Below the pieces are notes generated by a model. It worked only from the letters and a program-made list of their open reading frames with translations. It was not told where the DNA came from and ran no database searches. The position numbers were made by a program, and so were the translations under genes. From Strigamia acuminata (taxonomy: Eukaryota; Arthropoda; Chilopoda; Geophilomorpha; Linotaeniidae): 60,000 bases of DNA. The first letter of the stretch is position 1; each line of letters begins with the position of its first letter. This document shows positions 13,334-53,280 of this stretch, piece after piece. The stretch is taken from contig OX442314.1 in assembly GCA_949358305.1 (NCBI GenBank), forward strand, positions 8,365,060-8,425,059, given 5' to 3'.

Positions 13334-13584
13334 TTACTTGAGATTAGGTCCACAAACACAAATATGCTGTGCATTGCAATATCCTTGTATACTTCCTGTG
13401 AGAAGAAGGCATTGAAGCTCACAGAGCAAGTCAACGCCCAAGCCACAAAGAGTCAGCTGTGCCATTGCTGCAACAAGATTTACATGTCAATACTGTGAGT
13501 GGAAAAAGTATTATTTTAAAAGTAGAATCATAACTTACCAACACCCAAGTATGTCAAACAGAGAAAGATGATAAGAAATTTCAT
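13334..13584 (-). CDS. Defensin-like secreted peptide gene 1 (CS-alpha-beta type)
   Basis: Two exons. Exon 1 (13584-13539) encodes a signal peptide, MKFLIIFLCLTYLGV, and ends in phase 1 at a GTAAGT donor. A 71-bp intron (13538-13468) ends in TTGTTGCAG. Exon 2 (13467-13334) encodes the mature peptide; total 59 aa. The cysteines follow C-x7-C-x3-C-x10-C-x5-C-x-C. The CxxxC...CxC frame and the G-x-C gamma-core (GYC) are the hallmarks of CS-alpha-beta defensins, small disulfide-rich peptides that usually bind microbial surface lipids or ion channels. The peptide is slightly acidic, unusual for an antimicrobial. The stop lies in AAGTAAGATG, which also reads as a splice donor, so a third exon is possible. 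It is the most isolated member of the array, more diverged than the copies beyond 18 kb. Confidence 0.82.
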
Positions 13585-13610
13585 TTTGATCAACAAGTCT
13601 TTGAATCAAT

Positions 13611-13622
13611 TCTCTATTTATA
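13611..13622 (-). promoter_or_regulatory. TATA box of defensin-like gene 1
   Basis: On the minus strand TATAAATAGAGA lies 27-38 bases upstream of the ATG at 13584, implying a very short 5' UTR. It is a good consensus match at a suitable distance from a supported signal-peptide exon. Confidence 0.6.
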
Positions 13623-13739
13623 CTGCAGTAATGACTGTCAAGGTCCTTGTTTACTCTTTCAGCAGTCATTTTAATCCCCAGATATGAAAGAATGCAGACT
13701 TTAATCCAAGTCTTGACCAATGGAGAGATAAATCCATAT

Positions 13740-15760
13740 CAGTGTTGGTGGATTAACTTGAATTTCTGCTTCTTATGTGGAGCCAATGTCAGTGTCCGCC
13801 TAAAGATCACTTTCAAGCAATAATCCTAGTAACACTTTTACATTGGAATAACATCGTATAAATGTTGAAATGTTGACAACATGTTTTCTATTAGAAATAC
13901 TATTTTAATTTTCATGTTATTGCACATTAGGCACCATCGTTTAGTGATTTTAACGGCTATTATACGAGGCAGTACGAAAAAAAAAATCAAAATTTCCCTC
14001 TCATTGTTAATATCGACTCATTATAATTTTTATTTTTATATTGTTTAGGGCTATTTTACATGTAGATTTCAAATAAAAAATTAATTTTGCCATCAGTTTG
14101 GTCCTTCTATAAAATATCAAGTGGTCAAAAAAATTTGACCTGGAGTGTATATTCATTTCAAATGGGCTTGCGGATACTCTGAAAAATCCATAGATTGATT
14201 CATACAGATATCGGAGTTGCAATATTTTTAACAGCACTTATCCATTTTGCAATTCTTTTAAAAGGATCTCATGTTTATCCCCGAGTCTTATTATTTACAT
14301 TTATTCAGTCTCCGCCTCTCAAAATGCTTCACTCAACAACATTTAGCTTTTTATCTCCATAGCAACACGAACTGTGTTCATCAGTTCAATTCCATACCCA
14401 TTACTGTTCTTTTTGTCTCATTTCTCAGAGAGATAGGGAAAAAAAAGTAGAAAAATAGGATTGCATGCGTTTGCAATTTATCACAAGGATTAATTCAAGT
14501 GACATTTTTTTCCATCTAGTTTCAAGTCATCAAATTGCAAATTTAAAAATAATCTTGCAAGTCAAATTAAATGGAATAAGCCTAACTCCCATAAGAACTG
14601 CACAAAATAATTTATGCAGTTGGAAAAAAATAAAGTTTTTAAATATGCAATTTTAATGAAATGCAGTGGATAATTTAAAACCAAAAAAAAAAGTTGGAAA
14701 ATATCCCTAAAAACCATTTTATATCATCATATTTGTTTTTCTTCATTAATTTGAATAAAATTGTGCTAAAAATCGATTTTTCTAATGTAAAACCAACCCA
14801 AAGCTCTATGAATTCTAATACATGGCTCAGACTAAAATGAAGTGCTGGAGAATGGATTGTGGCATTCAAAATTCAAAATATATCTTAAAAAAATTTTTTT
14901 GGTATGATATATGCTTGTATTCCTTCCAGTTTTAAGGTTTTACTGAATAAACTTTATATTTGCCCACAGAATTCACAAATTCTCATTGGTCAGAGGGAAA
15001 ATTACACCTGGAAAAAATTCCCAATAATTTATTCGCTTTGTTGAAAGAGGGCTCTGATTACACTGAAGCGCTCCTGAAAAGAGCCGCGACAACTTGTTCA
15101 CTTTATTGAAAGAGGGCGCTGATCACATTTAGAAAGCAAACTTTTAGAGATTATTCCAAAGGTGAATTTCAAATTTGTTTCTTTTAAATTTATTCCAATT
15201 GAAAGAATAAACTTTTTTTTAACTTATTCCGGTTGAAAGCCGCCTTAAAATTTGGTATCAGTGATACACTTGAGGATTTTTGGAATAATGACAGGATATA
15301 AGAGTGTGATTTGCAAGAATCAGAGTTTATAAGATTACCCAAAGTGCCTCAGAGACTAAACAACATATAGATTTGCAAAATTTCTCTATTGTGGGAATTG
15401 TAAATTGCAACTTTCTTTCCAATGCATATCATGTTTTTTGTTGGAGATGAAACACAAACTCAAATCAAGATCCAAAACCAAGACATAGAATTTTTGTTTG
15501 CTTTTGTTTTCAATCAATGTCTGTGCAGTCAAAAATCACTTGCAGGTTGTCAATATGATTCCACAGTAATGTCATCCTGTTCAAACCCAATTGCAAGTGC
15601 ACTCCAACTATTGCTCTTGTTATTTACCCTTAAAGCTGCAATTCCCATTGTTTTAAGGCTCTTTCATCTAAAGTCTTAAAATAAATTGTATTTATGTTAT
15701 AATCAAACAAAAATCAAACTGTGTGGACAATAATGATTGGCCTTTTAAGCCTTTCCAGCT
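13740..15760. other. Non-coding stretch between peptide genes 1 and 2
   Basis: AT-rich DNA with no supported gene. Two partly similar AAAGAGGGCNCTGAT segments occur near 15043 and 15110. The ORF at 15422-15679 has no recognisable domain or splice context. Confidence 0.5.
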
Positions 15761-15765
15761 ATTTG

Positions 15766-15905: not shown

Positions 15906-16039
15906 TTCTAGATTCAAGTGCTTTAGGTGTAAGGTGTAACATTGTAGTCTACCGTCGGTTCATGTTTGTGTTCTCGCTGTATGAACACAAGGAAAAATCA
16001 GTAAAATGCAACACACAAAACATATTGAGGGTTAATCTC

Positions 16040-16284
16040 TTACATGGAACGATCTTCACAAATACAATCCTGACTTTCATCACAATATCCAACGAAACGT
16101 CGAGTGTTAATGCGGCATTGGAGTCTACAGGGCATGTCACCACCCAGTACACAAGGCAGATCAATTGCCATTGCTGCAACAAGAAACATGTCAAAACTAC
16201 AATTGGAAACAATTATTCTTTTTTAAACAAGAAACATAACGTACCAACATGTATCAAACAGAATAAGATGATTAGGGATTTCAT
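16040..16284 (-). CDS. Defensin-like secreted peptide gene 2
   Basis: Exon 1 (16284-16245) encodes MKSLIILFCLIHV in phase 1 to a GTACGT donor. The 71-bp intron ends in TTGTTGCAG, and exon 2 (16173-16040) completes a 57-aa precursor. The cysteine spacing is the same as in gene 1: C-x7-C-x3-C-x10-C-x5-C-x-C, with gamma-core G-Y-C. The third loop is arginine-rich (RINTRRF), but the tail is acidic (DESQD, EDRSM), so net charge is about -2. Exon 2 ends CATGTAAGAG, where the TAA stop is embedded in a GTAAGA donor-like sequence, as in other copies. I see no good TATA box upstream. A conserved 3' block with AATAAA lies about 140-270 bp downstream (15905-15766), closer than in later units. Confidence 0.82.
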
Positions 16285-18136: not shown

Positions 18137-18175
18137 AACAATAATAGGACTCAATGAATCTTGATAATAAATAAA

Positions 18176-19163: not shown

Positions 19164-19180
19164 TTTAGTTGCATAAGTTC

Positions 19181-19425
19181 TTACTTGGAGATGAAACAGA
19201 TACAATCGTCCTGGTCATCACACGCTCCGGCAAAATGTCCAGTTGATATTAAGCAAGCTGATTTACAACCAAAGTCGCCACCTAGCTTACAAGATAAACT
19301 TGTTGCTGTAAAAAAGATACAGATCAATACTTACGAGTGTAAAAACTACAATTTTTAAACCAAAAACAAAACTTACCAACAACATGGATTAAACAGAATA
19401 AGCTTAAAATTATTAGAAATTTCAT
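19181..19425 (-). CDS. Defensin-like secreted peptide gene 3
   Basis: Exon 1 (19425-19377) encodes signal peptide MKFLIILSLFCLIHVV, phase 1, donor GTAAGT. A 71-bp intron ends in TTTTTTACAG. Exon 2 (19305-19181) completes a 57-aa precursor. The mature part keeps C-x7-C-x3-C-x10-C-x5-C-x-C and the gamma-core G-A-C. Five aspartates against three lysines give an acidic peptide (about -2). The exon ends in AAGTAAGAAC, a stop that coincides with a donor consensus. A strong TATA box (TATATAAAAAG) is upstream, and an E-box-like CACGTGAC-type region lies further upstream in sister copies. MITE B begins immediately 3' of the stop. Confidence 0.83.
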
Positions 19426-22114: not shown

Positions 22115-22349
22115 TTACTTGAAACAGATACAATCGTTCTGGTTATTACACATTCCCTGAAAATGTCCAGTTTCTACAAAGCAACTTGCTCTACAAGCTA
22201 AGTCGCCAGCTAGCTCACAAGACAAACTTGTTGCTGTAAAAAAGATACAGATCAATAGTTACGTAAAAATTACAAATTTTAAACCAAAAACAAAACTTAC
22301 CAACAGCATGGATTAAACAGAATAAGCTTAAAATGATTAGAAATTTCAT
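22115..22349 (-). CDS. Defensin-like secreted peptide gene 4
   Basis: Exon 1 (22349-22301) encodes MKFLIILSLFCLIHAV, phase 1, donor GTAAGT. The intron is short and ends in TTTTTTACAG. Exon 2 (22233-22115) completes a 55-aa precursor, the shortest intact member because the tail after the last cysteine is only FK. Cysteines are C-x7-C-x3-C-x10-C-x5-C-x-C with gamma-core G-M-C. The mature peptide has two basic and four acidic residues. The stop is again inside AAGTAAGAAC. Promoter: TATATAAAAAGA at 22411-22422. This copy and gene 3 are the only ones downstream of 18 kb without the TTAA-type MITE C in their 3' flank. Confidence 0.83.
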
Positions 22350-24662: not shown

Positions 24663-24696
24663 GGATTAAACAGAATAAAATGATAAGAAATTTCAT
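24663..24696 (-). pseudogene. Defensin-like copy 5, exon 1 remnant
   Basis: Only the first 11 codons of the signal peptide (MKFLIILFCLI) survive. The sequence then passes directly into the terminus of a GC-rich hAT fragment. No mature-peptide exon remains to the left. The upstream flank (24697-24890) is still alignable with the other units. The TATA position reads ACTAGTAAAGAC. Confidence 0.8.
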
Positions 24697-24894
24697 TTTT
24701 AATGGATGGTCTGGCGGTAGAAAGAGAGAAACTAACGAACAGCAGATGAAGGACCTTGTCTTTACTAGTATCTGTTGCTGATGTGGCAGCGATACTGTAT
24801 GTATTCATATGACGCGTGCTTGGTGTACAGGCAAAATGGCGGATGGTTATCACGTGACTGTGCAGTGTATTGTGGATCAGCGATTGCTTGGCAA

Positions 24895-27596: not shown

Positions 27597-27730
27597 TATA
27601 ACTGTCTGTATAGTAAGGTACCAAATAGGCTGCCTTACTTGGATGTTTTACGTTGAAATATTTCAACTTTATGCTTGCGCGTTGAAGCTGATGCAACAAC
27701 GCATGCATGTGAACTAGCCTACATAAGTTC

Positions 27731-27953
27731 TTACTTGGATGATGAACAGATACAATCCTTCTGGTCATCACACGCTACCTGAAAATGTCCATCGGATGTA
27801 TAGCAATAACTTGCTGCACAAGCTAAGTCACCACCTAAGTGACAAGACTAACTTGTTACTGTAAAAATATACAGATCAATACTTATGAGTGTAGTAAAAA
27901 CATAACTTGCCAGCAACATGTATTAAACAGAATAAAATAATTAAAAATTTCAT
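27731..27953 (-). pseudogene. Defensin-like copy 6, premature stop
   Basis: Exon 1 (27953-27911) is intact for 14 codons, but the donor is GCAAGT instead of GTAAGT. Exon 2 (27858-27731) has a TAG at 27850-27848, just before the first cysteine, and one extra codon between the second and third cysteines, giving CxxxxC instead of CxxxC. The remaining cysteines and the final AAGTAAGAAC are preserved. Upstream the TATA box (TATAAAAG, about 28038-28046) is intact. Its usual 3' block is missing and is replaced by the mariner-type element. Confidence 0.8.
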
Positions 27954-28013
27954 TTTTGATGGATGGTCTTGCAGCAGATCTGCTGCAAGACCATTCATCA
28001 AAAATGAAATTTC
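27944..28013. repeat. Palindrome duplicating the start region of copy 6
   Basis: TTTTGATGGATGGTCTTGCA, GCAGATCTGC, then TGCAAGACCATTCATCAAAA: a nearly perfect inverted duplication of about 35-bp arms covering the ATG and 5' leader of copy 6. Confidence 0.75.
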
Positions 28014-28676
28014 TACAATGAAATTTCTACAATGCTTGCTTTTATACAGTATGTTGCTGGTGTGGCAGCGATACTGTATGTATTCATATGTTTACCAAGC
28101 GTCATATGACTTGTGCTTGGTGTACAGGCAAAATGACGGATGGTTATCACGTGACTGTACAGTGCATTGTAGATCAGCGATTGCTTGGCAACACGTTCAA
28201 ATATACTGTATATTAATGCAACAAATCTTAAAAAATAGCATGTTAAATTTTATTTTTTTGTTAATTTTCTAATAAAAATATACATTCATGTAAAAATCTT
28301 CATAAATAACATGTAATAATTATATTACAGCTAGGCAATAAATGTTGTTAACTATAGGCTTGTCCAATTTAATTAATAAAAACTAGTACTTTAAAGAAAA
28401 AATACCTGCGGGAGGGCTTGACCTTTACCCCCGGTCTAGCCCGAGACCTGATCCCCAGTCCAATTTTACTAGCCAAGCTTTTTGCACGCGTTTTCGCGTT
28501 CATTAAGTTTTTTGGCTATTTTTATCGTTTTTTCCGTCTTCTACGCTTTTCAACCTACCACATAAATAAATAGGCTCTTCCAAACTGTCACACGTTTTAT
28601 TTTATTTTATTTTATAGCTTTTGTTGTCGTCTCCAACACACCTGCTGCTTTTTCCCTATTATTTTTAAACCCTCTA

Positions 28677-29181: not shown

Positions 29182-30140
29182 TGTGGTGATCTCAAAATAT
29201 TCACCAACTTAGAAGATTAAATTAATTATCTTCTAATTAATTTGACTGTGGCACACGCCAAGTCAGATCATGTGACCGAGGGGAGAAATCCTCTCTAGGC
29301 ACATATCACCCCAGGTTGTCCGGGGTGAAAACGGTTATTAGCCGTTATGGTGCAATATGGTGTAATAACCACTAGTTGCACCCATTTGAGCTAAGTGCGC
29401 AGGTTTTCTGCGCAATATTGAAGCGTGCTGGGCTCGCGTCTTGGCTCAAATCGGCACTCTGAAAAATACAACAACAACCTCAACATCACTGCGATATCTG
29501 CTCCGACAATACGTATTGATAGAGGACCGTTGTAACTCAGTTTCACCTGCTATCTTTGTGCCACCCAAAGCACAAAGCCAGCAATTCTGCTTGAATTAGC
29601 CGTAGCTAATTCCAGCAAACGAGAAGAAGAAGTTTCCCGACGATCGTGAACCATCGCCGTCGCTGCCGCGCGAACGACAGCCACCGCCATCGTACGAGAG
29701 CCGGACGCCTACAGCCGTCAACCACCGCCGCCGAGCCGTCGCACGAGCCGTAGAAGGAGCCCACGAGAACCATCGTCTTCGACCATCGTTCGTGAGTTCA
29801 GCAAACGAAGACAATTCGCCTTCGCCTAACAACTGTGTGTTGTTTAAGCGCCATTTTAGCGCTTTGTAGCTTGCAACAGTCGTTGCAAGCCCTTCCATTG
29901 TTCCCGCTCATTTCATTTCGCGACTTGTCGCCATTGTGATATTTTTAACTAGTCATTGTAATTTAAACGAATAAATACATATTTGTGATTTTTATTAATA
30001 AAACTGTCTTTTTATTTCTTTTCCTTAAACTTAACCCCTAGATAATTTAAGGCCGCCGATTGTAAGTCTTTTATAGCATTCACCTGCGGTTTCTGCTTAA
30101 TTTATTAGAAATTAAGTGGATAAAAACCCGGATCGCAGCA
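29182..30140 (+). repeat. 5' LTR
   Basis: Starts TGTGGTGATC, ends CGGATCGCAGCA. Contains two AATAAA hexamers near 29970 and 29996 that could define the R-U5 region. A 100-codon antisense ORF (29596-29898), rich in Arg/Ser/Gly, is present in both LTRs; its status is unknown. Confidence 0.93.
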
Positions 30141-30142
30141 CG

Positions 30143-30160
30143 TGGGGGCCCGTCCGGGAT
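30143..30160 (+). promoter_or_regulatory. Primer-binding site, tRNA-Pro-like
   Basis: TGGGGGCCCGTCCGGGAT begins two bases after the LTR. It matches the tRNA-Pro primer site known from gammaretroviruses at 17 of 18 positions (from memory). It would prime minus-strand DNA synthesis from the 3' CCA end of the tRNA. Confidence 0.75.
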
Positions 30161-30251
30161 AGTCATTGTATAACTTTGTTAGTTAAAATTTACCCGCCAT
30201 TTTTATCTTGCTTATCTTTCTTCTCTATCCTTTCTTTATCCTCATTGAAAA

Positions 30252-33200
30252 ATGGCGACTCCTTCAGAGAAGAGACCGAGAGGAAGGCCGGCGAAGAGAC
30301 GAGTGGCGATCGATCTACCAGTCGTGGATCAAGAAGTGACTGAGTCACAAGAATTGTTTGAAGCCATGGATCAAACAGCTAACTGTAACTCGGCACAGTT
30401 AATCGTGAATGAATTCACGCAAGCGTTGGAGCGACAACAGCCATCCCCGCCCAGCGGCCAGTTGGACTTAAACAATCCAACTGGAAGTGGCCGTTCCAAG
30501 TCGCAAAACGATGATTTGAATTTACGAATTCAATCATCAAGTGCAGAGCACTCGCTGAATTCATCACCGGTTCAAGGTGCAGCACAACAAGATTCTGAGA
30601 ACTCCAATATGGAAGTTTCTCATTCTCCCGTGCGTGTTACCATGATGGACGCACTCCGTGAGCAAGCTAGGCTCGAGGGAGTAATAGTCACTAGCGAAAT
30701 GACTGTGGAACAAATCCACAAAGCTATGGTTCGCAAACAAAGTCAAAAAGACGTTGAAATCGTCAGAACAAGCTTGCAAGCAGAGTTCGAGCGAATGCGT
30801 GCAGAAATGCATCAGCAAAATGCCGAACTAAAACAACAACGTGCGAATGACCATGTTAAGTTGTTACAATTAGAGCAGGAAAAAGCTTCCTGGCTAATTA
30901 CTGACGAAGAGCAACAACAAAGGCTCGAGCAACTAAATCAAGCCCAAAAAGATTTAGAAATTGCTAATGAAAATTTGAGATTGGCCAACGCAAATTTGCG
31001 AGAAGCCAACACGAATTTAATGACTGCCGAACTAACCGCCCCAGTTCGAGCGAGGGAAGAAATTCCCTCCACTTCTCGAAATTACGAGAATCATGCTGCA
31101 GAGCAAGCAGCAAGAGCTAAGAGATTAGCACAACGAGAAAACGAAGTATTTCTCGCTCGACAGCAGTCCGTAATTGATGCTGGTCAAGCCGCCAAAAGTC
31201 AAAGTACTGCAGAGCAGTTATTACGTGCCGACTTAGCTGCGCAAGCTCGTGAAAACGAAATTCTTCGCGCAGATCTGTTGACGGTACAAGAGAACTTTGC
31301 AGTAGTCGTACAAAAAGTACAAGACGTTTGCGGCGAAGATAATTTTGCAAAGCCAGCCCCAGTTTTGCAAAAAGGTGCTTCCAAATCACCTGAGTTGATT
31401 GATTTAACATCAGCTAAACCAAAAGTCAGTCGACAATCAAGTTGGACTGACAGCGATGACTCACGCAGTAGTCGTGGAAGCCGTAATAGTCATCACAGTC
31501 GCAAAAAGAGAAAGCGACAACCAGACCCGACCGAATATCATTCCCCAAAAGTTCCGCAAAATTCGGATAGATTCTTTAGCAATAGTGACCAATTAATTGG
31601 ATTGCTGGCGAAAAAGAATAAAGAACGTGAGAAACCACACGATCGTGGACGGTCACACGATAATCCGCGAGAAGGCTCACCAAAACGAGATTGTCACAAC
31701 GACATCCGTGATGGGCCGAGATACCGTGGAAATCCGCCAGGTGGTGACCCACCAGGTGGAGACAGTTCAGATGGACATGGAGGTGGCCACTCACGTGACC
31801 ACAATTCGAATGGCAATCGAAATGGAAGGGGACCACCAAATGGAGACCGTCGTCCGCCAGATGGCGACGATCCTCCGGACCCTGATCCGCCGCCAAATCC
31901 GAATCATGAATCTGCGTCAGATACAGATTCCTCACGTCCCAGTGTGAGAGGGCGATCTCGTCACAGAACACGTAGTAGAACTCAAAGACCCGATTTTTAC
32001 ACGAAAGATGAGATTGACCAGTTGTTGAGGCAAAATGCTCAACAACAGCGAAAAAGCAGAAGGGATAAAATTATTTTGCAAAAAATAAGTGAATTTACTT
32101 CTGATAAATGGACTCATCAAACAACAGATGAAAAGTTCATTAGATGGGATCGAGTTATCCCACATGCCTATAATGGAAATTGGCAAGCAGGGTCAAACCT
32201 CTTGCTGGAAATATTCGAACTAGGCAAAGTTCACAGTTTTAGCTGTGAAGGTGCATTGGCCCATCTAGTACCAAGAATACTAGTTGGCGGTGTCAAGGAG
32301 TGGTTTCGCAGGAAAGACTTCACGAAGTGGGATGACTTCGTTAAACAATTTATGTTTAAATTTGGTGAATCGAGCGAAGACATCAAGACGCTTTGGAGAT
32401 GTCTTAAGCAACGAAAAGGCGAAAGCTTACATTCGTACATGCTAAGAGCAGAGAATCTGCTTGGCAGAATGCCACATGCTGTTACTGATGCAACAGCAGA
32501 TGATCAGTTTAGAGCTGGCCTCACAGAATATAGTAAAAATATTCTGATGATGTCGGACGCTCCCGACCCGGGGAAATTCTCCGAGTTAAACGAATTCATG
32601 GAAGTCAATCAATTGCGCATTGACGAAAAGTACAAAGCTTACCTTACAGAAAGCGAAAGGTCAGCGTACTTAAAGCGAGAGAAAAGACTCGCTGAGCAAA
32701 ACAATGAAACCTTTAATGGTTTGAAATTGTTGCAGCCACCTAGTTACGAAGACTTTCTAGACGAAGTGGATGAGAAGAGTTCGAAAAAAGAATCTTCCAA
32801 AAAGGACGTCAAAAATCCTCATTCAGTTCCTAAGTTACATGCAAATATAACAGGAGCTGAAACTCCGTCGTCTGAAGCTGAAGAAGCTGAAGAGGAGGAG
32901 GAAGCAGGAGATGAGACGTTGGCTTTATTAGCCAAAGCAGCGGCGCTGTTAGCAAAAAATAACCCCGTTGCAGGCAAATGGAAGCCAAAAATGAAACCAA
33001 AAAATGTTTCATTTGACGCATCAAAGGTGAATACCGAAAGGAATTCAAAATCACCCGCGGTGTCGCCAGAGCGCCGGTCTGACGCTCGTTCTCGTTCTGC
33101 CTCACCAGCAGCAACGAAAAAGAAATCGCCTGCCACTGATCCATGCAATTTATGCAAAAAATTAGGGCATTGGCAAAAAGACTGCCCATCCTCTAAAAAG

Positions 33201-33275: not shown

Positions 33276-33309
33276 ACGCAGATCCATCAGGTCTAGTGGA
33301 CGCTGCGTC
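33263..33309 (+). promoter_or_regulatory. Programmed -1 ribosomal frameshift signal
   Basis: The heptamer A AAA AAC at 33263-33269 is in the correct gag phase (cgA AAA AAC), two codons before the gag stop at 33273-33275. A 5-base spacer leads to a stem: GACGCAG (33275-33281) pairs with CTGCGTC (33303-33309), and an inner stem TCCA (33283-33286) pairs with TGGA (33297-33300). The -1 frame is the pol frame, open from 33254 onwards. Heptamer, spacer and stem all fit canonical retroviral frameshift sites. Confidence 0.88.
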
Positions 33310-36300
33310 ACCTCCGAAATCGGAATCAGAGAATGAAAATCTGAAGATAATGGAAGATGTTGGAGAAGTTATTGATGAATTAATTCGTCAAACAGAACTA
33401 AAAGAAAAAGGATCTCTTGATGTAAAAAAGGAGATTGTCGGCGAAACTCCGACTGAAGAAGACACTTCCAATATTAAAGATAAAGTTGAAGTTAAAGACG
33501 ATAGACCAAGCTCAGTTCCAGAGACACCTGGAATTGAGGAGTGCATTAAGTTATTTGCAGCTACAACTCTTGATACCAATGAGTTATTAGATGAATTGCC
33601 TTTGGAGCCTCCAATTACAATTCCTCATAAATTGCGCAAGTTTGAGTGCAAAGTGGCTGGAATACCAAACAGCCAAGACCTTCCGACGTTAAAGTTAGAA
33701 ACGTTAAAAGGTGTAATAACCGGAATGTTGGACTCAGGAGCAAATAAAAGCTTCCTAGCCACTTCAGTTATTAATCAATTAGGTCTAGAAAAATATCTAC
33801 GACCTATCGGACCTGGTGTCAGAGTCACGACGGCAAGTGAAGAAGTCACTCCAGATGGAACCATTCATCTTTCATTTCGATGGACACATGGCACGTTACG
33901 TCATCCGTTCATCGTAATACCAAATAAGTATCCAATGGTACTATTGGGTTGCGATTTTATGAATAAATTAAAAATCCAACCTAATCCACAGACGATGTCT
34001 TGGAATTTCACGCAACCTGTGGATGCAGATTTACCCTACATTCCACAAGCGTTGCTGGATCGTTATTTGGAGAAAATAGAGGAACCCGATTCCTCATTTG
34101 TGACCTTTGCAAAAGCTTACGCTGCAAGTGTAACTCAAAGCAAAATTGATGAAGAGAATTTCATCCAAAAGTTAGTCAAAGAAGCTAACTTAAATTTGGA
34201 GCAATCCAAATTATTAGAAAAGATGTTATCCAAACATAAAAGGATTATTTCTAAAGATCCAGGTAAAACACACCTGGTTAAGCACAAAATTGAGCTTGAC
34301 ACGGAGAAACCCATCCGTGTCCCCTTTAAGAGCATAAACCCTCAAAAAAGGGAAATAATCAGACAACTTTGTCAAGACATGATTGACAAAGGCGTAGTCG
34401 TCAAAGCTGAAGGCGATTACGGAATGAGGCCAGTCCTAGTCATGCGACCAGGAAACGACCCACGCTTGTGCATTGATTTTCGCCCCATCAATACACATAC
34501 TAAGTACAACCCACCTCAAATGCCAACAATTGAGGAAATTCTGCGAGAAATCGGAGAATTCGAGTGGGTCAGTACTATAGATCTGACCAAGGGATATTGG
34601 CAGATAGAATTGCGCCCTGAAGACAGAGAAAAAACTGCCTTCTGGAGCCCAATGGGAAGACTAATGTTTTTAGTCATGCCTTTCGGATTAGTAAACGCAC
34701 CAACTACCTTCCAAGAATTGATGGAAAAAGTTTTGGGTGACGTTTACAGAAAATTTGCATGGGCATATTTGGATGACATAATTGTTGTATCTAAATCGTT
34801 CGAAGAACACATTAAACATTTAGATATAGTGTTTAAAAAATTGGCAGAAGCTAATTTACATGCGCATCCTGGCAAGACGCATCTCTGTAGAAAGGAATTA
34901 ATTTTTCTAGGCTACAAAGTAGGAGTAGAAGGACTTGCAGTAGACCCTAAAAAAGTCGCTGCAATTACGCAATTTCCGGCTCCTACCAATCTTAAGGAAT
35001 TACAAAGATTTCTAGGCATGGTGAATTTCTTTCACCGCCTAATCAAGAATTTGGCCACAGTGGCAGAACCACTAAGGCCACTCTTGAAGAAAGATGCGGA
35101 GTTCGATTGGGAACTGCATCATCAAGCAGCATTCGACGCAATAAAAGACCTGCTTACGAATGCTGAAACAATGAAGATGCCTGACTTGTACATGCCATTT
35201 ATTGTTCATACTGACGCCAGTAAACAAGGGTTGGGTGCAGCCCTTACACAAAAGAAAATTGTGGATGGCCAAGAAGTCGAAATGCCATGCGTGTATGCAA
35301 GCAGAAGCTTGCAACCCGCTGAAAAGAATTATACTGTGACAGAATTAGAATGTCTCGCAGTAGTATGGGGATTACGCAAATTTCGCCCATACTTAGAGTA
35401 CACTACATTCACTGTACAAACGGATCACCAAGCACTTAAGTGGTTGATGTCGTTATCTGACCCGTCGGGCAGATTAGCTCGTTGGCAAATGGAGCTAATG
35501 GCGTATTCGTTCGAAATACAATACGTCAAAGGTCCGCTGAATGTAATAGCAGACGCATTGTCACGTGCACCTGTCAGCGCACCTGACGAACCAGAAGACG
35601 ATGGCGATAATGATGATTTATTATCATATTGTCCATCTCCTTGCCGAAGTTGGCAAATGGGAAAATTGAACGAATTACCCAAGTCAATAATAGTTAATGA
35701 CGACGATCAAGCATTAATTAATTTTTGTATTAACATGCATGATCCGTCAGGAACCCCTGACGTCGAATTAAGAGCTATGATGGCTAAAAAATTCGAGCTG
35801 CCAACAACAAATGTTTTAATTAAAGCATTTGCAGCTAAAATTGCGAAGCAATTAGAATGTGATCCTCCAACGAGAGATGACATTATTGCAGCGCAAAAAG
35901 CAGACGAATTTTGCCAACATATTCGCAATTACTTGCTAAACAAGCAATATCCAAGTTACATAGTAACTCATCTTCAAAGAAGAAACTTTGAAAGACACGC
36001 GAGTACTTATCTCATTGAAGAAGATATGCTACTCCATTATCATCCTACCTCCACCGATGAATTGGGAGAGGATGGTAGGGCACTTAAAGTTGTTGTGCCA
36101 AGAAAATTGATTTATAAAATCATTTGGTTGATGCACGGACATCCACTGTCCGGCCACCCAGGCATTGCGAGGACAATGTACCGAACTCGAAGAGTTTATA
36201 CCTGGAAAGGTATGAAACGTGATATTACACGTTTTATTCAACATTGTCAAGGATGTCAGGCATGTAAGCCGAGATCAAAGACCGAAATTGAAGGCGCTCA

Positions 36301-37522
36301 AATTGGACCATTTGGACCATTTGACTGCCTCAGTGTGGATTTGTCTGGTCCCAAACCAAGAACCAGAAAAAACAATACCCACATTTGCGTCATCGTAGAT
36401 GTCGCTACACATTGGCCCGAATTATTTCCAATGTGTAATCCAACGGCAATAAAAGTTGCCAACACAATTTATCACTTATCAATGACTTTCGGATTTCCGA
36501 GACAAATCATAAGTGATAATGGACCACAATTTCGATCACAGGTCTATAAAGAATTTTGCAAAAAATTCGACATGTCGCGAACACCGACATCGATTTATCA
36601 TCCACAAAGCAATCCTGTGGAGAGAACCAATCGAGATATTAAATATTTAGTTTCGATTTATTTAGATATTCATGACCAATGGGATGAGTATCTACGCGAA
36701 TTTGCATTCAGTTTGAGAACAACTGTAACAAGAGGCAGAGATTATTCTCCTGCTTTCTTAAATTTTTTCCGAGAATTAAGAATTCCTTGGGATCCAAGAA
36801 TTCCGGAAGGAATTTTAGTCATTGATCCAAAAAATCCGCATTTATATGTTCAGAAATTAGAAACAATAATTGCAGAGACGTATCAGCATATGATGTCTCA
36901 CGTCTTAGATTTGAGACGCCGTGTCGAAGCTGAAAAATCAGATAAGAAATTCGACAACTTCAGACAAAATGATTTAGTCTGGCGAGAGTCTCATATTCTC
37001 TCAAATGCCGCTAAAGGAATAGCAGCAGGCATTTCACCGAAAAGGAATGGGCCTTATGTAATTATCAAAAGGTTACAAGGAGGCGCCTTTCAACTTCGAC
37101 GGCTGAGTGATAATAAAATTTATCCAGCTGTTCACGGCACTGAATTAATGCCGTACTTTCCCGTTTTCAACCAAGAAATTTGGCTGGAAGGGGAGGAAGT
37201 GGGTCAAAAAACAAAGAATATTGTTAATACCTTGGATGATGCTAAATTATCCAAAATTCCTGTCGAAAACACGGAATCGAGTAAAAAATCGAAACTCAAA
37301 AATAACGAAGTCGATGAAATAAACCAGCGACTTGAAAATGTTTCTCTTGATGAAAATCTAGAAAAGGAAATGTTTTTAGAAAAAGAGAAAATTTCAAACA
37401 ATGAAGTATATAACTCATCTGACATTGGAGACGATGCTGATGACAATCTAAACAAGTTGGATTGTACTTCGCGAAAGTCAAAGTACAACTTGAGATCTCG
37501 CGTTCCGCGAGCCAAGACATAG
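33263..37522 (+). CDS. pol: Pol polyprotein: protease, reverse transcriptase, RNase H, integrase
   Basis: Read in the -1 frame relative to gag, with no ATG of its own near the start, so it is expected as a Gag-Pol fusion. Counting residues from 33296: aspartic protease motif DSG near 146 (33731); reverse transcriptase at about 340-580 with YLDD at 491-494 (34766); RNase H near 638 (TDASKQGLG); integrase zinc finger H-x-H...CxxC at about 945-985; catalytic D,D,E at 36338, 36515 and 36620 with about 35 residues between the last two; GPY/F module (RNGPYVIIKRL) near 1251. An acidic tail of about 130 residues follows, with no chromodomain. All catalytic residues are present. Confidence 0.95.
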   Translation, partial: KKLVDADPSGLVDAASPPKSESENENLKIMEDVGEVIDELIRQTELKEKGSLDVKKEIVGETPTEEDTSNIKDKVEVKDDRPSSVPETPGIEECIKLFAATTLDTNELLDELPLEPPITIPHKLRKFECKVAGIPNSQDLPTLKLETLKGVITGMLDSGANKSFLATSVINQLGLEKYLRPIGPGVRVTTASEEVTPDGTIHLSFRWTHGTLRHPFIVIPNKYPMVLLGCDFMNKLKIQPNPQTMSWNFTQPVDADLPYIPQALLDRYLEKIEEPDSSFVTFAKAYAASVTQSKIDEENFIQKLVKEANLNLEQSKLLEKMLSKHKRIISKDPGKTHLVKHKIELDTEKPIRVPFKSINPQKREIIRQLCQDMIDKGVVVKAEGDYGMRPVLVMRPGNDPRLCIDFRPINTHTKYNPPQMPTIEEILREIGEFEWVSTIDLTKGYWQIELRPEDREKTAFWSPMGRLMFLVMPFGLVNAPTTFQELMEKVLGDVYRKFAWAYLDDIIVVSKSFEEHIKHLDIVFKKLAEANLHAHPGKTHLCRKELIFLGYKVGVEGLAVDPKKVAAITQFPAPTNLKELQRFLGMVNFFHRLIKNLATVAEPLRPLLKKDAEFDWELHHQAAFDAIKDLLTNAETMKMPDLYMPFIVHTDASKQGLGAALTQKKIVDGQEVEMPCVYASRSLQPAEKNYTVTELECLAVVWGLRKFRPYLEYTTFTVQTDHQALKWLMSLSDPSGRLARWQMELMAYSFEIQYVKGPLNVIADALSRAPVSAPDEPEDDGDNDDLLSYCPSPCRSWQMGKLNELPKSIIVNDDDQALINFCINMHDPSGTPDVELRAMMAKKFELPTTNVLIKAFAAKIAKQLECDPPTRDDIIAAQKADEFCQHIRNYLLNKQYPSYIVTHLQRRNFERHASTYLIEEDMLLHYHPTSTDELGEDGRALKVVVPRKLIYKIIWLMHGHPLSGHPGIARTMYRTRRVYTWKGMKRDITRFIQHCQGCQACKPRSKTEIEGAQIGPFGPFDCLSVDLSGPKPRTRKNNTHICVIVDVATHWPELFPMCNPTAIKVANTIYHLSMTFGFPRQIISDNGPQFRSQVYKEFCKKFDMSRTPTSIYHPQSNPVERTNRDIKYLVSIYLDIHDQWDEYLREFAFSLRTTVTRGRDYSPAFLNFFRELRIPWDPRIPEGILVIDPKNPHLYVQKLETIIAETYQHMMSHVLDLRRRVEAEKSDKKFDNFRQNDLVWRESHILSNAAKGIAAGISPKRNGPYVIIKRLQGGAFQLRRLSDNKIYPAVHGTELMPYFPVFNQEIWLEGEEVGQKTKNIVNTLDDAKLSKIPVENTESSKKSKLKNNEVDEINQRLENVSLDENLEKEMFLEKEKISNNEVYNSSDIGDDADDNLNKLDCTSRKSKYNLRSRVPRAKT

Positions 37523-37711
37523 TGTTGTCTTTCACCTTTTGGGTTTACCCAAAAGATCCGAGAAAGCAATCTCGTGACGTCATTCGTAGTACCCGCTCGA
37601 ATGACAACGTTAATCATACGTTATAATTAGTGACGTCACAAAGCGTCTCTAATCCAAGTTCGTGTTTGCAATCAACGAACTTAGTCACTTTTTCAAAAGT
37701 TTCGAGAGTGT

Positions 37712-40507
37712 ATGCATCGCATCGCCTACGTTACGACCCGAATAGTTCGACAACCTGATCGTAAGTAATTTTTCTGTATGAAAAATTTGATAAAACATAA
37801 GATTTATGTATTATTTCTCTTTCAAGACGAAAGAATTTCCGAAATTACCGGAAAACGAAAGAGAATGGACGAGGAAGCGATCCAACTCCAGGCGGACGGA
37901 GAAATGCCCATGGAAGGGGCAAATGAAGACGTTCAATTGACGCTTCAACAACGGGTAAATTATTAGAATAAATTTTTACCAAGTGTTTAAGTCAGAAAAA
38001 TTGAGTAATTTCACTTTTCCTGACTTCAAACACAAGCCGCTAAAAAATAAAAATGGCGGCTATAAAAGTCACGTGCTTCAAGCATGTGCGAAGGGAGTTG
38101 CCATGACAACCAACATCCCTTAGTGACTCACAGCCACAAGCGCTAAGCTTAAAAAATATTTCAAATAAGAAATTATTTGTTTATTTTTAAATAAACTAAT
38201 TTATTTATTTTTCTTCGAATATAGATCGAGAGGGATCGAGAAACACCATTCGCGCTTCCCGATCACGTGCCGACTCAGCACCCGCTGATTTTTCGAGCGG
38301 CATTGCCCGAAAAAATCAGAAGACTGAAGACGGCAAACAATACCTGGTGGAAGTTGCGCCACGACTTCAGCAGATCAGCGCTGCAAGGATTTGGTGCAAA
38401 AGGAAGATTCATCGAGCGCCTTCACGTGGACGGTGTCGACGAAATCGAGTGGACGCTCGACGAGAGCCCCCCAGGACCGCTTGCAGCAGAGTTGCTGCAC
38501 AACCAGTGGCCAGTGACGCCACGAGAGCGTCACGAGCGCAGAAGAGCGCTAAAGAGTACCGGAATTAATTACGGTGCTCTAACCCAATTGAGGAAGAACC
38601 TCAAGACGACACAACGCGAAGTCGTTAAACGGTATCGCAAATCCGTTCGTGACGGGAACCCACAACTTCCCGTCACACAAACCGAGCTCCACCAGTTGGC
38701 GCTCGCCGGGTGTTTTAACGATTTTCCGGGATTTTTCCCGTCCAAAGCACTCCGAGCTGCCGCGGTGCAGCTTCGCGTCGACGAAAATCGACAACTGGCT
38801 CGAGAACACGAGGCAGAGGAGCAAGCGCGTTGCGCTCTCCCTTTTTATCAAGAAGATGAAATTCCGGCCCCAGCGGCCATCAATCCTCCGCCGCAAGACG
38901 AGGATTTGAGGGTGGGGCAACTCCCTCCGCCGGTTCCAGTCCGACCGATGTTCCGCGAATCAAGCCGCGATCGAGAGGAACGTCAGAGGCGATCACGCCC
39001 ATATTCGACTGACGCGCAGCCATCACGCCCGCAGTCGCGACGAGGACGGACACCAGAGTCGTTTGGCTCGTCGTCTTCGCTGAGTTTCGAATCGGACTCC
39101 ACAATTAAGTCCGCCCGAAGTAGCCGAACCGCCTCCACGTTCAAAGTGGACAACCCGGCTACTCCATACGCCATGAGACGTGTCGTCGGTGATATTTCTC
39201 CCGACTGTAGTGTGCCTGTACCTGGACACGCTAGCCGCTTGCCCGAACAAGGTTATGTTTCCCGCTTGCCGGCTGGAGTTAGCAACCTGCAACTCCGGCC
39301 ATTTTTCAGTGAGTCGTTCGGCCCACAATGGACCTGCTACGAGCAGCAACCCATTAGAGCGCAGCAGGAAGTGCTCCAGAAGCTGGACGCATACCAAAGC
39401 GCCCAGATCGCCGAGTCACAGAAGGACTGGCAGAGACTAGCTGAAAGGCTAGAAGTCTCCGACATCAATACCATTGATGATCCCCGCCTGATGGATTTTC
39501 AGCGTCAGCTAATTCCGGGGATGACTAGGGTGTTGTACCCTGGTGTTCTTCCTTCGCCAGGACAGGCGTTAGCGGCCATTACGTACCTTTGGACCGCGCC
39601 GATGGGCCTGTCGGAGAAGAAAGTCGAGCTGTGGTACCACCTCAGGCTCGACCCGCCTACGATCTTAGCCGAGCTAATAAAGCAAGTCGTAGCAAACGGT
39701 GAGACCGAAGAAGAGGCCGCCGTTCGGTTGCGAACCGAGTGGTCCTTTGCGAAGGCCACGGCGCGAATGACCGGAAGACCACCGCTTCCAGTTACAAGCG
39801 CCACAGCAGCTGCGTCACTGGCTGTTTTCCAGTCGGCTCAAGAGGGCGCTGGATGTTCATTTTGGCCAGAGAACGCCGGAAGTTCTCAAACTCCAGCCGG
39901 AGTTCAACGGGTAGTCGAAACCCGTCAGCTCCCCGGTGTGGGTCGAGCACCGGGACGAGGCGTCACACCCTCGTCAACCTCCGCACCCGCGTTGGTTTTC
40001 TTGGGCCCGCAGTGCCATTTTGACGATGCCACGACGGAAGACTCACGTCCGCCGCCGCCGCCGCCAGCCAAGCCGGAGACGAAGGTCAAGCCGCTGAAAA
40101 AAGAGTCGGCTTTCAAGACCCTGATGCGCCTGTATCCGCACTTCTATTTGACGCCGGATACGCGAACACTGCTTAGCAACAACCACAAGTTGTCGAGGCA
40201 GGTGTTTATGTGGCTCGAGGACCACATCCGGGTGTTAAGCCCACCATCAGTGCTCCACGATCGACTCCTGAGAGCACGATTGGCGCCAGAGGATCCCATA
40301 GAGTTTGCGGCGCTAGGATTTTTCAACCGAGCGAACTCGGCGAGAATCATCCAGGTTTGGCTTCATGTCAACCCTGGAATGGTCTCCGGACCAAACGCAG
40401 GTCGCGACCTGTGTACGGTTAACGAGCGGTCCAACCCGAGGGACGACACCACGGATATGATGCGCCCGTTGACGCCTGAGCGAACTCAGACCATGGACGA
40501 ATCATAA
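37712..40507 (+). CDS. ORF3 of the LTR element, three exons, unknown protein
   Basis: Exon 1 37712-37760 (ATG, donor GTAAGTAA, phase 1), intron 66 bp ending TTTCTCTTTCAAG; exon 2 37827-37954 (donor GTAAAT, phase 0), intron 270 bp ending TTCTTCGAATATAG; exon 3 38225-40507. The coding total is 2460 bases, exactly 820 codons with the stop, so all junctions keep frame. Exon 3 has no ATG near its start and is preceded by an in-frame stop overlapping the acceptor, which supports splicing. The protein (about 819 aa) is charged and Pro/Arg/Ser-rich in the middle, with a poly-Pro run near the C-terminal third. It has no signal peptide, no membrane helix and no cysteine-rich ectodomain, so although it sits where env genes sit it does not look like an envelope. 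I do not recognise a family. GC content is higher than gag-pol, suggesting a different origin. Confidence 0.75.
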
Positions 40508-40546
40508 ATTGGTTCGTTCATTTTCTCTCCATGTAAGATTCGTCTT

Positions 40547-40559
40547 AAATGGGGGGATG
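40547..40559 (+). promoter_or_regulatory. Polypurine tract
   Basis: AAATGGGGGGATG directly precedes the 3' LTR. A purine run at this position primes plus-strand DNA synthesis in LTR elements. Confidence 0.75.
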
Positions 40560-41518
40560 TGTGGTGATCTCAAAATATTCACCAACTTAGAAGATTAAAT
40601 TAATTATCTTCTAATTAATTTGACTGTGGCACACGCCAAGTCAGATCATGTGACCGAGGGGAGAAATCCTCTCTAGGCACATATCACCCCAGGTTGTCCG
40701 GGGTGAAAACGGTTATTAGCCGTTATGGTGCAATATGGTGTAATAACCACTAGTTGCACCCATTTGAGCTAAGTGCGCAGGTTTTCTGCGCAATATTGAA
40801 GCGTGCTGGGCTCGCGTCTTGGCTCAAATCGGCACTCTGAAAAATACAACAACAACCTCAACATCACTGCGATATCTGCTCCGACAATACGTATTGATAG
40901 AGGACCGTTGTAACTCAGTTTCACCTGCTATCTTTGTGCCACCCAAAGCACAAAGCCAGCAATTCTGCTTGAATTAGCCGTAGCTAATTCCAGCAAACGA
41001 GAAGAAGAAGTTTCCCGACGATCGTGAACCATCGCCGTCGCTGCCGCGCGAACGACAGCCACCGCCATCGTACGAGAGCCGGACGCCTACAGCCGTCAAC
41101 CACCGCCGCCGAGCCGTCGCACGAGCCGTAGAAGGAGCCCACGAGAACCATCGTCTTCGACCATCGTTCGTGAGTTCAGCAAACGAAGACAATTCGCCTT
41201 CGCCTAACAACTGTGTGTTGTTTAAGCGCCATTTTAGCGCTTTGTAGCTTGCAACAGTCGTTGCAAGCCCTTCCATTGTTCCCGCTCATTTCATTTCGCG
41301 ACTTGTCGCCATTGTGATATTTTTAACTAGTCATTGTAATTTAAACGAATAAATACATATTTGTGATTTTTATTAATAAAACTGTCTTTTTATTTCTTTT
41401 CCTTAAACTTAACCCCTAGATAATTTAAGGCCGCCGATTGTAAGTCTTTTATAGCATTCACCTGCGGTTTCTGCTTAATTTATTAGAAATTAAGTGGATA
41501 AAAACCCGGATCGCAGCA
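40560..41518 (+). repeat. 3' LTR
   Basis: 959 bp, identical by eye to the 5' LTR, followed by the ATCT target copy and then the continuation of the unit-7 3' block (TTAATTCAAAAAAACAAGCA). Confidence 0.93.
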
Positions 41519-46227: not shown

Positions 46228-46471
46228 TCACTTGGAATATGTACAAATACAATCATTCTGGTCATTACACGCTCCCGCAAAATATCCAGTTGAAAAACGA
46301 CAACTTTCTTTACAACCAAAGTCGCCATCTAGCTTACAAGATAAACTTGTTGCTGTAAAAAAGATACAGATCAATACTCATGTAGTAAAAACTACAATTT
46401 TTAAACCAAAAACAAAACTTACCAACAACATGGATTAAACAGAACAAGCTTAAAATGAATAGAAATTTCAT
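46228..46471 (-). CDS. Defensin-like secreted peptide gene 7
   Basis: Exon 1 (46471-46423) encodes MKFLFILSLFCLIHVV, phase 1, donor GTAAGT. The intron ends in TTTTTTACAG. Exon 2 (46352-46228) completes a 57-aa precursor. Cysteines are C-x7-C-x3-C-x10-C-x5-C-x-C with gamma-core G-A-C. Net charge is about -1. It ends AAGTGAGAAC: here the stop is TGA, yet the donor consensus GTGAGA is retained. The TATA position is degenerate. Its normal 3' block lies at 28985-29181, now about 17 kb away because the LTR element and the MULE inserted between. If the mRNA needs that block, this copy could be impaired despite its clean frame. Confidence 0.82.
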
Positions 46472-48795: not shown

Positions 48796-49052
48796 TTACT
48801 TGGGAGATGAACAGATACAATCCTTCTTGTCATCACAATGTCCCTCAAAACGTCCAGTTGATGCTACGCAAGTTGCTTTACAACCAATGTCGCGAATATT
48901 AATATTAGCCAGACAAGCCAAACTTATTGCTGTAAAAAAGATACAGATCAATACTTATGAGTGTAAAAACTACAATTTTTAAACCTAAAACAAAACTTAC
49001 CAACAACATGATGGATTAAACAGAATAAGCTTAAAATGATTAGAAATTTCAT
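48796..49052 (-). CDS. Defensin-like secreted peptide gene 8
   Basis: Exon 1 (49052-49001) encodes MKFLIILSLFCLIHHVV, one codon longer than copies 3-7 through an extra CAT. Phase 1, donor GTAAGT, 71-bp intron. Exon 2 (48929-48796) completes a 61-aa precursor. The first loop is three residues longer (C-x10-C-x3-C-x10-C-x5-C-x-C) while the CxxxC, G-H-C and CxC core is intact. Net charge is about +1. It ends AAGTAAGAAC. The TATA position is degenerate (ACTAGTAAAGAC). Gene 9 is its closest relative and shares the longer first loop. Confidence 0.82.
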
Positions 49053-50494: not shown

Positions 50495-51030
50495 CAGTGT
50501 TGGGTACGGTATTCGGTACTGTACCGGAAGTACAGTACCGTCGATACCGGTACTTCCGGTAACCTGCATTACATCTCGCGGTACACGGGAAATCGCGAGA
50601 AAACACGAGATTCTCGTGTTATAAACATCAATAATTTATAAAATGCCTAAAATACTATTAAAAGTTTATTAATAATAAGCTTTTAATTGGTTTTTATTAA
50701 TTTTAAAGTTTATTTCTTTTTTGTAGCCAAAATTAAAACTTTCAAAGGAAGAAAACCCAATTAAAAGTTTATTATTAATAAACTTTTAATAGTATTTTAG
50801 GCATTTTATAAATTATTGATGTCTATAACATCAACTTTTTACAATTAAAGTGGAAAACGGGAGAATCACGAGAATTTCGTGTTTTCTCGCGTTTTCCCGT
50901 GTACCACGAGATGTACCGCAAAATCCCGGTTCCAGAATTGTACCGGGACCGCGGTAAAGTGCTAGGTACCGCGTACCGGGACCGCAGAACTTTTCAGCAC
51001 CTGCGCAAGTACCGCGTACTTGTACCGTGG
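50495..51030. mobile_element. hAT-type element in unit 8, right end lost
   Basis: CAGTGTTGGGTACGGTATTC follows CAATTAAA, the same target as at 25663 and 53766. The interior includes the TTTATAAAATGCCTAAAATA inverted repeat (about 50636-50818). The right part runs GTACCGCGTACTTGTACCGT and then joins the PHD-gene tail at about 51031. Confidence 0.65.
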
Positions 51031-51158
51031 TAGTGGTTCCCCACAGCCCAAATTGACTGATACCCAATCCACATTAACCAATGATTTACCATCAGTTCTG
51101 ACAAATACTTGTACACTATTACAAAGAAATGAAATACGGAGTAATACATACCGGTATA
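51031..51158 (+). pseudogene. PHD-gene tail fragment (fifth copy), split by mariner-type element 3
   Basis: TGGTTCCCCACAGCCCAAAT to GAAATACGGAG matches 47339-47440. The remainder (TTTCTGCTCTTTATTTTCCT) continues after the fold-back element at about 51949. It is only a fragment and cannot encode a protein. Confidence 0.55.
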
Positions 51159-51929
51159 CAGGGTGTCCCAAAAGTCTGAACCACCCTAAATATTTCGTGA
51201 ACAATTGCATCTAGGCCAACTTTGATGAAGCAATCGTACAGAAAGTTGGGTGAGAGCAATCCAATGATGTCATCAAATTTGACCTTGAAGGCCGTTTTCA
51301 AGGTCATTCACTTGCTAACTTCTAAACCAATCAGGTTACAGAAAAATTTCCAATTACAAAGTTGCAGAGCGCCATCTAATTAGTCTAGAACTGTTCTTAA
51401 AAAAATTATCTCTTACTGAAAAGTTTTGAGAAAAAAAGGTTTGAAACATTGGTCTACTCAGCTTTGTAACTCAGCTTTGTAAACTAAAACTATTGAGGCA
51501 ACCAAGCTAATCCTCAATTAGGACACTTTATTGGGTCATACTTGTAAGTAGAAGAGAGGAAACACAAAAGAAAGGAACTAATTTATTTTGGAAATACATT
51601 CCACATGATAGTGTTAGGTTACAAAGCTGAGTAGACTAACATTTAAACCTTTTTTTCTCAAAACGTTTCAGTTATAGATAATTTTTTGAAGAACAGTTCT
51701 AGACTAATTAGATGGTGCTCTACAACTTTGTAATTGAAAATTTTTCTCTAACCTGTTGGTTTAGAAGTTAGCACAAATGAATGACCTTGAAAATGGCCTT
51801 CAAGGTCAAATTTGATGACATCATTGGATTGCTCTCACCCAACTTCCTATACGATCGCTTCATCAAAGTTGGCCTAGATGCAATTGCTCAGGAAATATTT
51901 AGGGTGGTTCAGACTTTTGGGACACACTG
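51159..51929. mobile_element. Mariner-type fold-back element 3 (TA target)
   Basis: CAGGGTGTCCCAAAAGTCTG at the left, CAGACTTTTGGGACACACTG at the right, TA flanks. The arms share the CATCTAGGCCAACTTTGATG block with elements 1 and 2, and the core is a third unrelated sequence. No transposase. Confidence 0.85.
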
Positions 51930-52634
51930 TATATAGAATGACAGCCTGTTTCTGCTCTTTATTTTCCTAAATTATCATAAAATGAATAAAGTTCTTTCCA
52001 GTTATTTGCATATGAACTTGGTTTATTCGTGGTGAAAACAAGAAAACACAGCAAAATGATCAAAACAATGATAAAACACTATTCCATCATATCCCAATTA
52101 CCCTCAACCAAAGACATATTTTAAATTAACCCATACCCTTACAAAGACAACATCTCATGTATCATCTTGATTCAAAAAAACAAGCATTATTAACTTAGTT
52201 TCAAGATGCAATTGATGTCAAGTGCTGAACAGAGCCAAATAGAAGTGATTTTTGTGGAAATAATTGCCGATGTCTAAATGTCGTACTGTAGTCCAATTCC
52301 GGTGGAAAACTAATGCCTTGTTCACACTTAAACCACTTTTGTAGAAGTTATGGTTAATTTCGATAAGTATACTTCAGAGCAGTCATACTTTTAGTACAAA
52401 TTAGCGACGTTTTTAACAAGAAGTGACGTCAAAAGTGACTTTTTCAACTTGTACAAAGCCATTCCAAATGTGAATAACAGAGTTTCTAAAAGCTGTCTGG
52501 ACGAAAAGTGGTTAAAGTGTGAACTAGGCATAAACTTAAGAGACACGTTGTAGTCTATAGTTAGTCGTCCCTATAGGAAACACAAGAAAAAATAAGTTAA
52601 AAGCAACGCAGATGTGAACAAGGTGCGTTGTTAA

Positions 52635-52800
52635 AGGTCAACTGCACTGAGTGGGTTTTATTTTTTTTCTGACAGAGCCTAATAAAAAATTGTTATTAAA
52701 CAATGATAAAGGCCCAAATTTTATTTTTTTTAACATGAAAAATATTTTTTCATTAGGCTCTATCAGAAAAAAAATAAAACTCACTCGGTGCACTTGACTT
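52635..52800. mobile_element. MITE C in unit 9, TTAA target
   Basis: TTAA at 52631-52634 and 52801-52804. Nearly the same length (166 bp) and internal deletion as the unit 7 copy, so these two probably descend from one insertion. Confidence 0.75.
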
Positions 52801-53023
52801 TTAAGCCTAATTCACATACATGCATTAACGCATGCGTTTTGCGCAACAAAGCTGTTTAGTTCACTTGCACGCTTTACTACCGCGCGTTGGCCGAAGCGCC
52901 TTGTGACTATTCATGCGCTATAACACACGACGGATGAAGTTGAAATATTTCAACTTTAAACTTGCGCATTGAAGCTGATGCAACAACACATACATGTGAA
53001 CTAGCCTTTAGTTACATAAGTTC

Positions 53024-53280
53024 TTACTTGAACTGTGTACAAATACAATTCTTCTTGTCATCACATTTTCCCGCAAAACGTCCAGTTGATGCTGCGCAAG
53101 TTGATTCACAACCAAAGTCACGGTTGCCAGCACTTAGCATACAAGCCAAACTTGTTGCTGTAAAAAAGATACAGATCAATACTTATGAGTGTAAAAACTA
53201 CAATTTTTAAACCTAAAACGAAACTTACCAACAACATGATGGATTAAACAGAATAAGCTTAAAATGATTAAAAATTTCAT
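53024..53280 (-). CDS. Defensin-like secreted peptide gene 9
   Basis: Exon 1 (53280-53229) encodes MKFLIILSLFCLIHHVV, phase 1, donor GTAAGT. The 71-bp intron ends in TTTTTTACAG. Exon 2 (53157-53024) completes a 61-aa precursor with C-x10-C-x3-C-x10-C-x5-C-x-C and gamma-core G-K-C. It has six basic and four acidic residues, about +2, the most cationic copy. It ends AAGTAAGAAC. The TATA position is degenerate. Intron and signal exon are almost identical to gene 8, whereas the loops between cysteines differ at many residues. Confidence 0.83.

Follow-up and report, generated by a model that had tools for sequence, protein, structure and literature searches.

Defensins and defensin-like peptides of arthropods offer several described systems against which a new family may be set. 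The nasonins of the wasp Nasonia vitripennis are described as lacking a propeptide, as having a phase-1 intron after the signal peptide and a short n-loop, and as occurring in tandem duplicates; one of them, nasonin-6, has several domains with one exon each (PMC2853521). The defensin genes of molluscs and arthropods are described as usually having a phase-1 intron ahead of an unsplit mature exon, and the defensins of the scorpion Mesobuthus martensii, which are reported to be expressed constitutively, follow this plan, with two exons, one phase-1 intron, an unsplit mature exon and the cysteine-stabilised alpha-beta (CS-alpha-beta) fold (PMC6435467). Here we describe a tandem array of genes from the centipede Strigamia acuminata that shares the features just listed for the nasonins (nasonin-6 aside) and, in its gene layout and predicted fold, resembles the M. 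martensii defensins. The array lies within a stretch of 60,000 nt of contig OX442314.1 (C1), positions 8,365,060-8,425,059, which we call the window; coordinates refer to the window unless a contig is named.

Rebuilding the genes from the DNA gave seven intact two-exon genes, all on the minus strand, running from position 53280 down to 13334 (Table 1). A first-pass annotation of this DNA had proposed a family of nine genes, seven with intact frames. All seven intact frames were recovered with exactly those outer limits, and each has the strand, the phase-1 intron and the precursor length (55-61 aa) that had been proposed; the remaining two copies, however, are one pseudogene and one stub, and the description of every copy as having an intron of about 71 bp and a full mature exon holds for the intact genes but not for these two. 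The introns of all seven intact genes are GT-AG introns of 67-71 bp. Exon 1 (40-52 bases) contains a start codon and a strongly hydrophobic stretch and, judged from hydrophobicity alone, would code for a signal peptide, while exon 2 (119-134 bases) codes for the mature peptide and the stop. Only 4-6 residues separate the splice from the first framework cysteine in each of the seven, and there is no obvious propeptide.

The evidence that these are defensin-like CS-alpha-beta peptides begins with the cysteine framework. The spacing C-x(7 or 10)-C-x3-C-x10-C-x5-C-x-C with a G-x-C gamma-core, as first proposed, is present in all seven intact genes, with loop lengths of 7/3/10/5/1 in five and 10/3/10/5/1 in two. 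This spacing occurs seven times in the window, and 100 first-order Markov simulations of the window never produced it; all six framework cysteines are invariant over the seven precursors, while other positions vary. Two of the checks that the first-pass annotation had suggested, profile search and structure prediction, lend it support. A profile of 14 domains matched seven chains of insect defensins in the PDB (E 1.9e-4 to 7.4e-4), with Anopheles defensin, phormicin, lucifensin and sapecin among the best matches. Taken singly, none of the seven peptides reaches the Pfam Defensin_2 (PF01097) cut-off of 20.4 bits (gene 1 comes closest, at 18.1 bits), and only three of them match at all at E <= 1, which fits the idea that standard annotation could overlook the array. 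The models of genes 3 and 6 (mean predicted local distance difference test scores of 85.6 and 78.7) each show a helix followed by two strands, as in the CS-alpha-beta fold, and the structures that they match best are those of scorpion K-channel toxins and of defensins from plants, fungi and insects; VIA-align was used on one model only. A scan of ncbifam returned nothing useful, and a weak search for abaecin, run without a positive control, gave no match over its cut-off. Our conclusion is that a defensin-like CS-alpha-beta identity is supported by the framework, the PDB profile matches, the models and the relatives of the same layout. The array shares cysteine order and gamma-core with insect defensins; it differs from them in falling below the Pfam cut-off, in showing no propeptide, in being mostly anionic and in the shorter first loop of five of the seven genes.

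Relatives of the array were sought throughout the genome (157 contigs, 237,517,015 bases; the published assembly is described as having a span of 237.5 Mb, 11 chromosomes and a 15.07-kb mitochondrial genome, PMC10556566). Among the matches listed, protein searches with four family members found the array itself and places on contig C3, where three multi-domain genes lie (Table 1); all seven domains of these genes keep the six cysteines and the gamma-core glycine. In the same searches no further single-domain copy on C1 around the window was among the best candidates scored, and our copy counts are lower bounds. The C3 genes may be a parallel to nasonin-6 or to the X-tox proteins, which the source describes from Lepidoptera only and which have several defensin-like domains per protein (PMC2728511); the intact genes of the window, in contrast, are all single-domain. 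A tree of the 14 domains has long branches, and only one of its 11 inner branches is well supported.

A genome search with Defensin_2 found 16 places at E <= 10. Two of them exceed the cut-off (C3:32.126 Mb, 24.6 bits; C1:1.849 Mb, 23.0 bits), and the 14 below it include C1:2.522 Mb (18.7 bits), gene 1 of the window (17.8) and C1:6.945 Mb (15.4). The same search on 14 control genomes gave matches in three and none over the cut-off. The places at C1:1849199-1849288 and C1:2522200-2522289 are near-identical (97%) cationic defensin genes on opposite strands, about 0.67 Mb apart, and the precursor of the former scores 23.5 bits. Both have a short signal exon, a phase-1 intron and no obvious propeptide, the same layout as the array genes. 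The best match on C3 (C3:32125836-32125931) has an apparently longer exon structure.

Table 1. Coordinates of the array genes, their defective copies, the multi-domain relatives on C3 and the retroelement inside the array
Feature	Position	Strand	Structure
Gene 1	13334..13584	-	exon 1 13584-13539, intron 71 bp, exon 2 13467-13334; 59 aa
Gene 2	16040..16284	-	exon 1 16284-16245, intron 71 bp (donor GTACGT), exon 2 16173-16040; 57 aa
Gene 3	19181..19425	-	exon 1 19425-19377, intron 71 bp, exon 2 19305-19181; 57 aa
Gene 4	22115..22349	-	exon 1 22349-22301, intron 67 bp, exon 2 22233-22115; 55 aa
Stub (ninth copy)	24663..24878	-	promoter and part of exon 1, ATG 24696-24694
Pseudogene (eighth copy)	27652..28175	-	exon 1 27953-27911, exon 2 27858-27731, by eye
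LTR retroelement	29182..41518	+	LTRs (long terminal repeats) 29182-30140 and 40560-41518; not part of a peptide gene
Gene 5	46228..46471	-	exon 1 46471-46423, intron 70 bp, exon 2 46352-46228; 57 aa, stop TGA
Gene 6	48796..49052	-	exon 1 49052-49001, intron 71 bp, exon 2 48929-48796; 61 aa
Gene 7	53024..53280	-	exon 1 53280-53229, intron 71 bp, exon 2 53157-53024; 61 aa
Three-domain gene	near C3:19,680,550-19,681,055		three CS-alpha-beta domains, one exon apiece
Two-domain gene	near C3:19,686,570-19,686,880		two domains on two exons
Two-domain gene	near C3:13,882,925-13,883,160		both domains within one exon

As to what the peptides do, we lean, by a modest margin over doubt, towards host defence: the array would encode secreted CS-alpha-beta peptides that have diversified by tandem duplication. 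We favour this because the relatives closest in layout, the nasonins and the scorpion and insect defensins, have mostly been described as immune peptides, and because clear defensins are also present in the same genome. Once the signal peptide is cleaved and three disulfides have formed, each gene would yield a stable secreted peptide of about 36-41 residues with a surface of its own. The predicted fold, a helix and two strands, would be held by disulfides Cys1-4, 2-5 and 3-6, which is the pattern described for arthropod defensins (PMC10051947). Together the paralogues would form a diversified set of effectors against microbes.

Charge complicates the comparison with known defensins. Counted from two residues ahead of the first framework cysteine, the net charge of the mature peptides is -1 to -2 for genes 1-5, +1 for gene 6 and +2 for gene 7, so that five of the seven lack the net positive charge of cationic antimicrobial defensins, while both separate C1 defensins carry +3. 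The nasonins, too, are described as net positive (PMC2853521), and the array departs from the defensins of M. martensii both in being mostly anionic and in comprising seven genes in tandem (PMC6435467). Anionic peptides with antimicrobial potential do exist. Given that five of the seven mature peptides are anionic, we consider that they would probably bind specific targets and not disrupt membranes through their charge, as cationic defensins do.

The mostly anionic charge would also be in keeping with secreted CS-alpha-beta peptides whose role is tissue-specific and concerns neither immunity nor venom, for example an epithelial, reproductive or protease-regulating one. The regulatory sequences can be read the same way, in that no strict kB consensus was found in the 600 bp upstream of any of the seven genes. 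A looser Relish-like pattern occurs once upstream of gene 1 and once upstream of gene 2, CACGTG occurs upstream of genes 4, 5 and 6, and forkhead-like sites occur upstream of six of the seven; such motif matches, taken here without a chance control, show little by themselves. Moreover, in Nasonia, nasonin-1, -2 and -3 are reported as infection-induced and the others as unregulated or expressed at too low a level to be tested, and the authors leave room for non-immune functions (PMC3873987). We nevertheless judge a non-immune role unlikely, there being no positive evidence for it in our data.

The way in which the array has grown and diverged bears on a stronger competitor to host defence. Segments of at least 600 bases around the genes occur in duplicate, at 72-94% identity, and thus segmental tandem duplication gave rise to the copies. 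Genes 3-4 and genes 6-7 are the two closest pairs, and within them the promoter, exon 1 and intron differ by just 1-4%. The mature exon, on the other hand, differs at 21/119 positions between genes 3 and 4, against 81/1045 in the 3' flank (2.3-fold, P 8e-4), and at 29/134 between genes 6 and 7, against 45/676 (3.3-fold, P 7e-7). This test was applied to five pairs, with windows of at least 60 gap columns excluded, and only these two pairs had clean 3' flanks; pairs 5-6, 3-5 and 3-6 gave P = 1, 1 and 5e-5 respectively, and were left unused, their flanks being rearranged or unalignable. An alternative contrast, of the mature exon with the near flanks, was discarded in favour of the 3'-flank contrast, as it overstates the effect because the promoter and intron are more alike than the wider flank.

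The simplest reading of these sequence comparisons is that diversifying selection acts on the mature peptide. Two results weigh against it: the pooled ratio of non-synonymous to synonymous divergence (dN/dS) does not significantly exceed 1 (P 0.11), and in the mature exon even synonymous sites have diverged more than near non-coding DNA (P 0.019). Homogenisation of the promoter, exon 1 and intron by gene conversion may play a part.

A conserved promoter, signal exon and intron beside a fast mature exon is also a pattern of venom genes. The main rival to host defence is that the array encodes venom peptides built on a defensin scaffold, secreted by the forcipular gland and directed at the ion channels of prey. 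Centipedes are venomous, and SLPTX 2 of Ethmostigmus rubripes, known from venom, is described as a defensin-like family with six cysteines in the order C-C-C-C-CxC, as in the array (PMC4379518), a likeness drawn from description only. The gene 3 model is structurally closest to scorpion K-channel toxins, although this match does not discriminate between the two functions, since scorpion toxins and defensins have a common fold. Against a venom role, the word 'defensin' is absent from the main text of a venom study that covers S. maritima; the same text gives GEOTX 1 and 2 as venom peptide families of S. maritima only (PMC6878950). On balance we regard a venom function as a real possibility, though clearly a less probable one than host defence.

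Two defective copies and two mobile elements are interspersed with the genes. The pseudogene is 71-76% identical to genes 3-7 across nearly its full span by blastn. Examined by eye, it carries an in-frame TAG immediately 5' of the mature part, and its intron is 52 bp long and has a GC donor; C-x4-C replaces C-x3-C, and the gamma-core glycine has become valine. The blastn alignment of the stub covers only positions 1-240 of the query, without the mature exon, and the stub runs on into unrelated GC-rich sequence. Between the pseudogene and gene 5 lies an LTR retroelement with protease, reverse transcriptase, RNase H and integrase domains, and a zinc knuckle slightly below cut-off. Over 959 bp its two LTRs show no difference, and a 4-bp repeat, ATCT (by eye), flanks it on each side, which suggests a recent insertion. 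Past its pol-like frame is a third open frame (38267-40507) with no Pfam match at E <= 0.01. Another open frame, at 42994-45342 (782 aa, with a MULE transposase domain), stands between the retroelement and gene 5. Elements of about 60-90 bases flank gene 6 on its 3' side (~48782-48697, about 14 bases past the stop) and its 5' side (~49252-49164); both recur across the genome, the 3' one at at least 30 places. The array genes thus seem to be set among dispersed repeats.

Decay of this kind raises the question of whether the whole array might consist of chance open frames or relics without coding function. A pseudogene, a stub and a recent retroelement within the array are all in keeping with such a reading, and so is the position of polyadenylation signals: AATAAA or ATTAAA occurs 255-334 bases past the stop in genes 1, 2, 5, 6 and 7, but neither was found within 900 bases past the stop in genes 3 and 4. 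Set against these are seven intact frames whose cysteines are invariant amid varying positions, the preservation of splice sites and intron phase in all seven, and a framework spacing that the simulations never produced, and we consider the idea most improbable.

Neither an Rfam match over the gathering score nor a tRNA is present in the window. Twelve open frames chosen from outside both mobile elements (at least nine flanking the array and at least one within it) gave no Pfam match at E <= 0.01, and so we name no neighbouring gene. Elsewhere in the assembly, TTAGG arrays are found at the start of C1, with 7317 forward and 11387 reverse matches genome-wide (4 and 6, respectively, for the reversed control); for comparison, the telomeric repeat described for chalcids is TTATTGGG (PMC8977481). 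On the mitochondrial contig C157 (15,068 bp; protein genes placed by eye), tRNA-Leu(UUR) adjoins ND1 and COX1 adjoins COX2. This pair of adjacencies differs from the arrangement of insects and crustaceans. The gene order of C157 is rearranged, and a stretch is duplicated at about 8304-8647 and about 11286-11629. Both the telomeric repeat and the mitochondrial adjacencies are consistent with an arthropod other than an insect. They speak against a chalcid wasp, an origin that the close likeness of the array to the nasonins would suggest, and the mitochondrial adjacencies also speak against a springtail.

Genes of the CS-alpha-beta defensin-like kind are already known, and the nasonins, the nearest in organisation, come from an animal of a different subphylum and were compared with the array by description, not by sequence (PMC2853521). 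The value of the array lies in its being found in a congener of S. maritima, whose genome paper identified no antimicrobial peptide homologue. A comparative study likewise places the Defensin2 domain in Ixodes and Mesobuthus only (PMC4833078). Within the literature covered, we found no report of a defensin-like array in a centipede, and among the papers listed as dealing with both defensins and centipedes none concerns Strigamia defensins by its title or abstract.

The coordinates of seven intact genes in a congener make the question of Strigamia antimicrobial peptides testable, and the range of charges and loop lengths that they cover provides a ready series for structure-function work. More tentatively, and with the odds somewhat against it, we suggest that geophilomorph centipedes converted an ancestral gene for a cationic defensin into an arsenal of peptides that is lineage-specific, mostly anionic and fast-diversifying and that comes in two formats, the single-domain tandem array and the separate multi-domain genes, two of which have one exon per domain. 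If true, this would be a counterpart to the nasonins of wasps and the X-tox proteins of moths, and it would account for the earlier failure to report antimicrobial peptide homologues in Strigamia.

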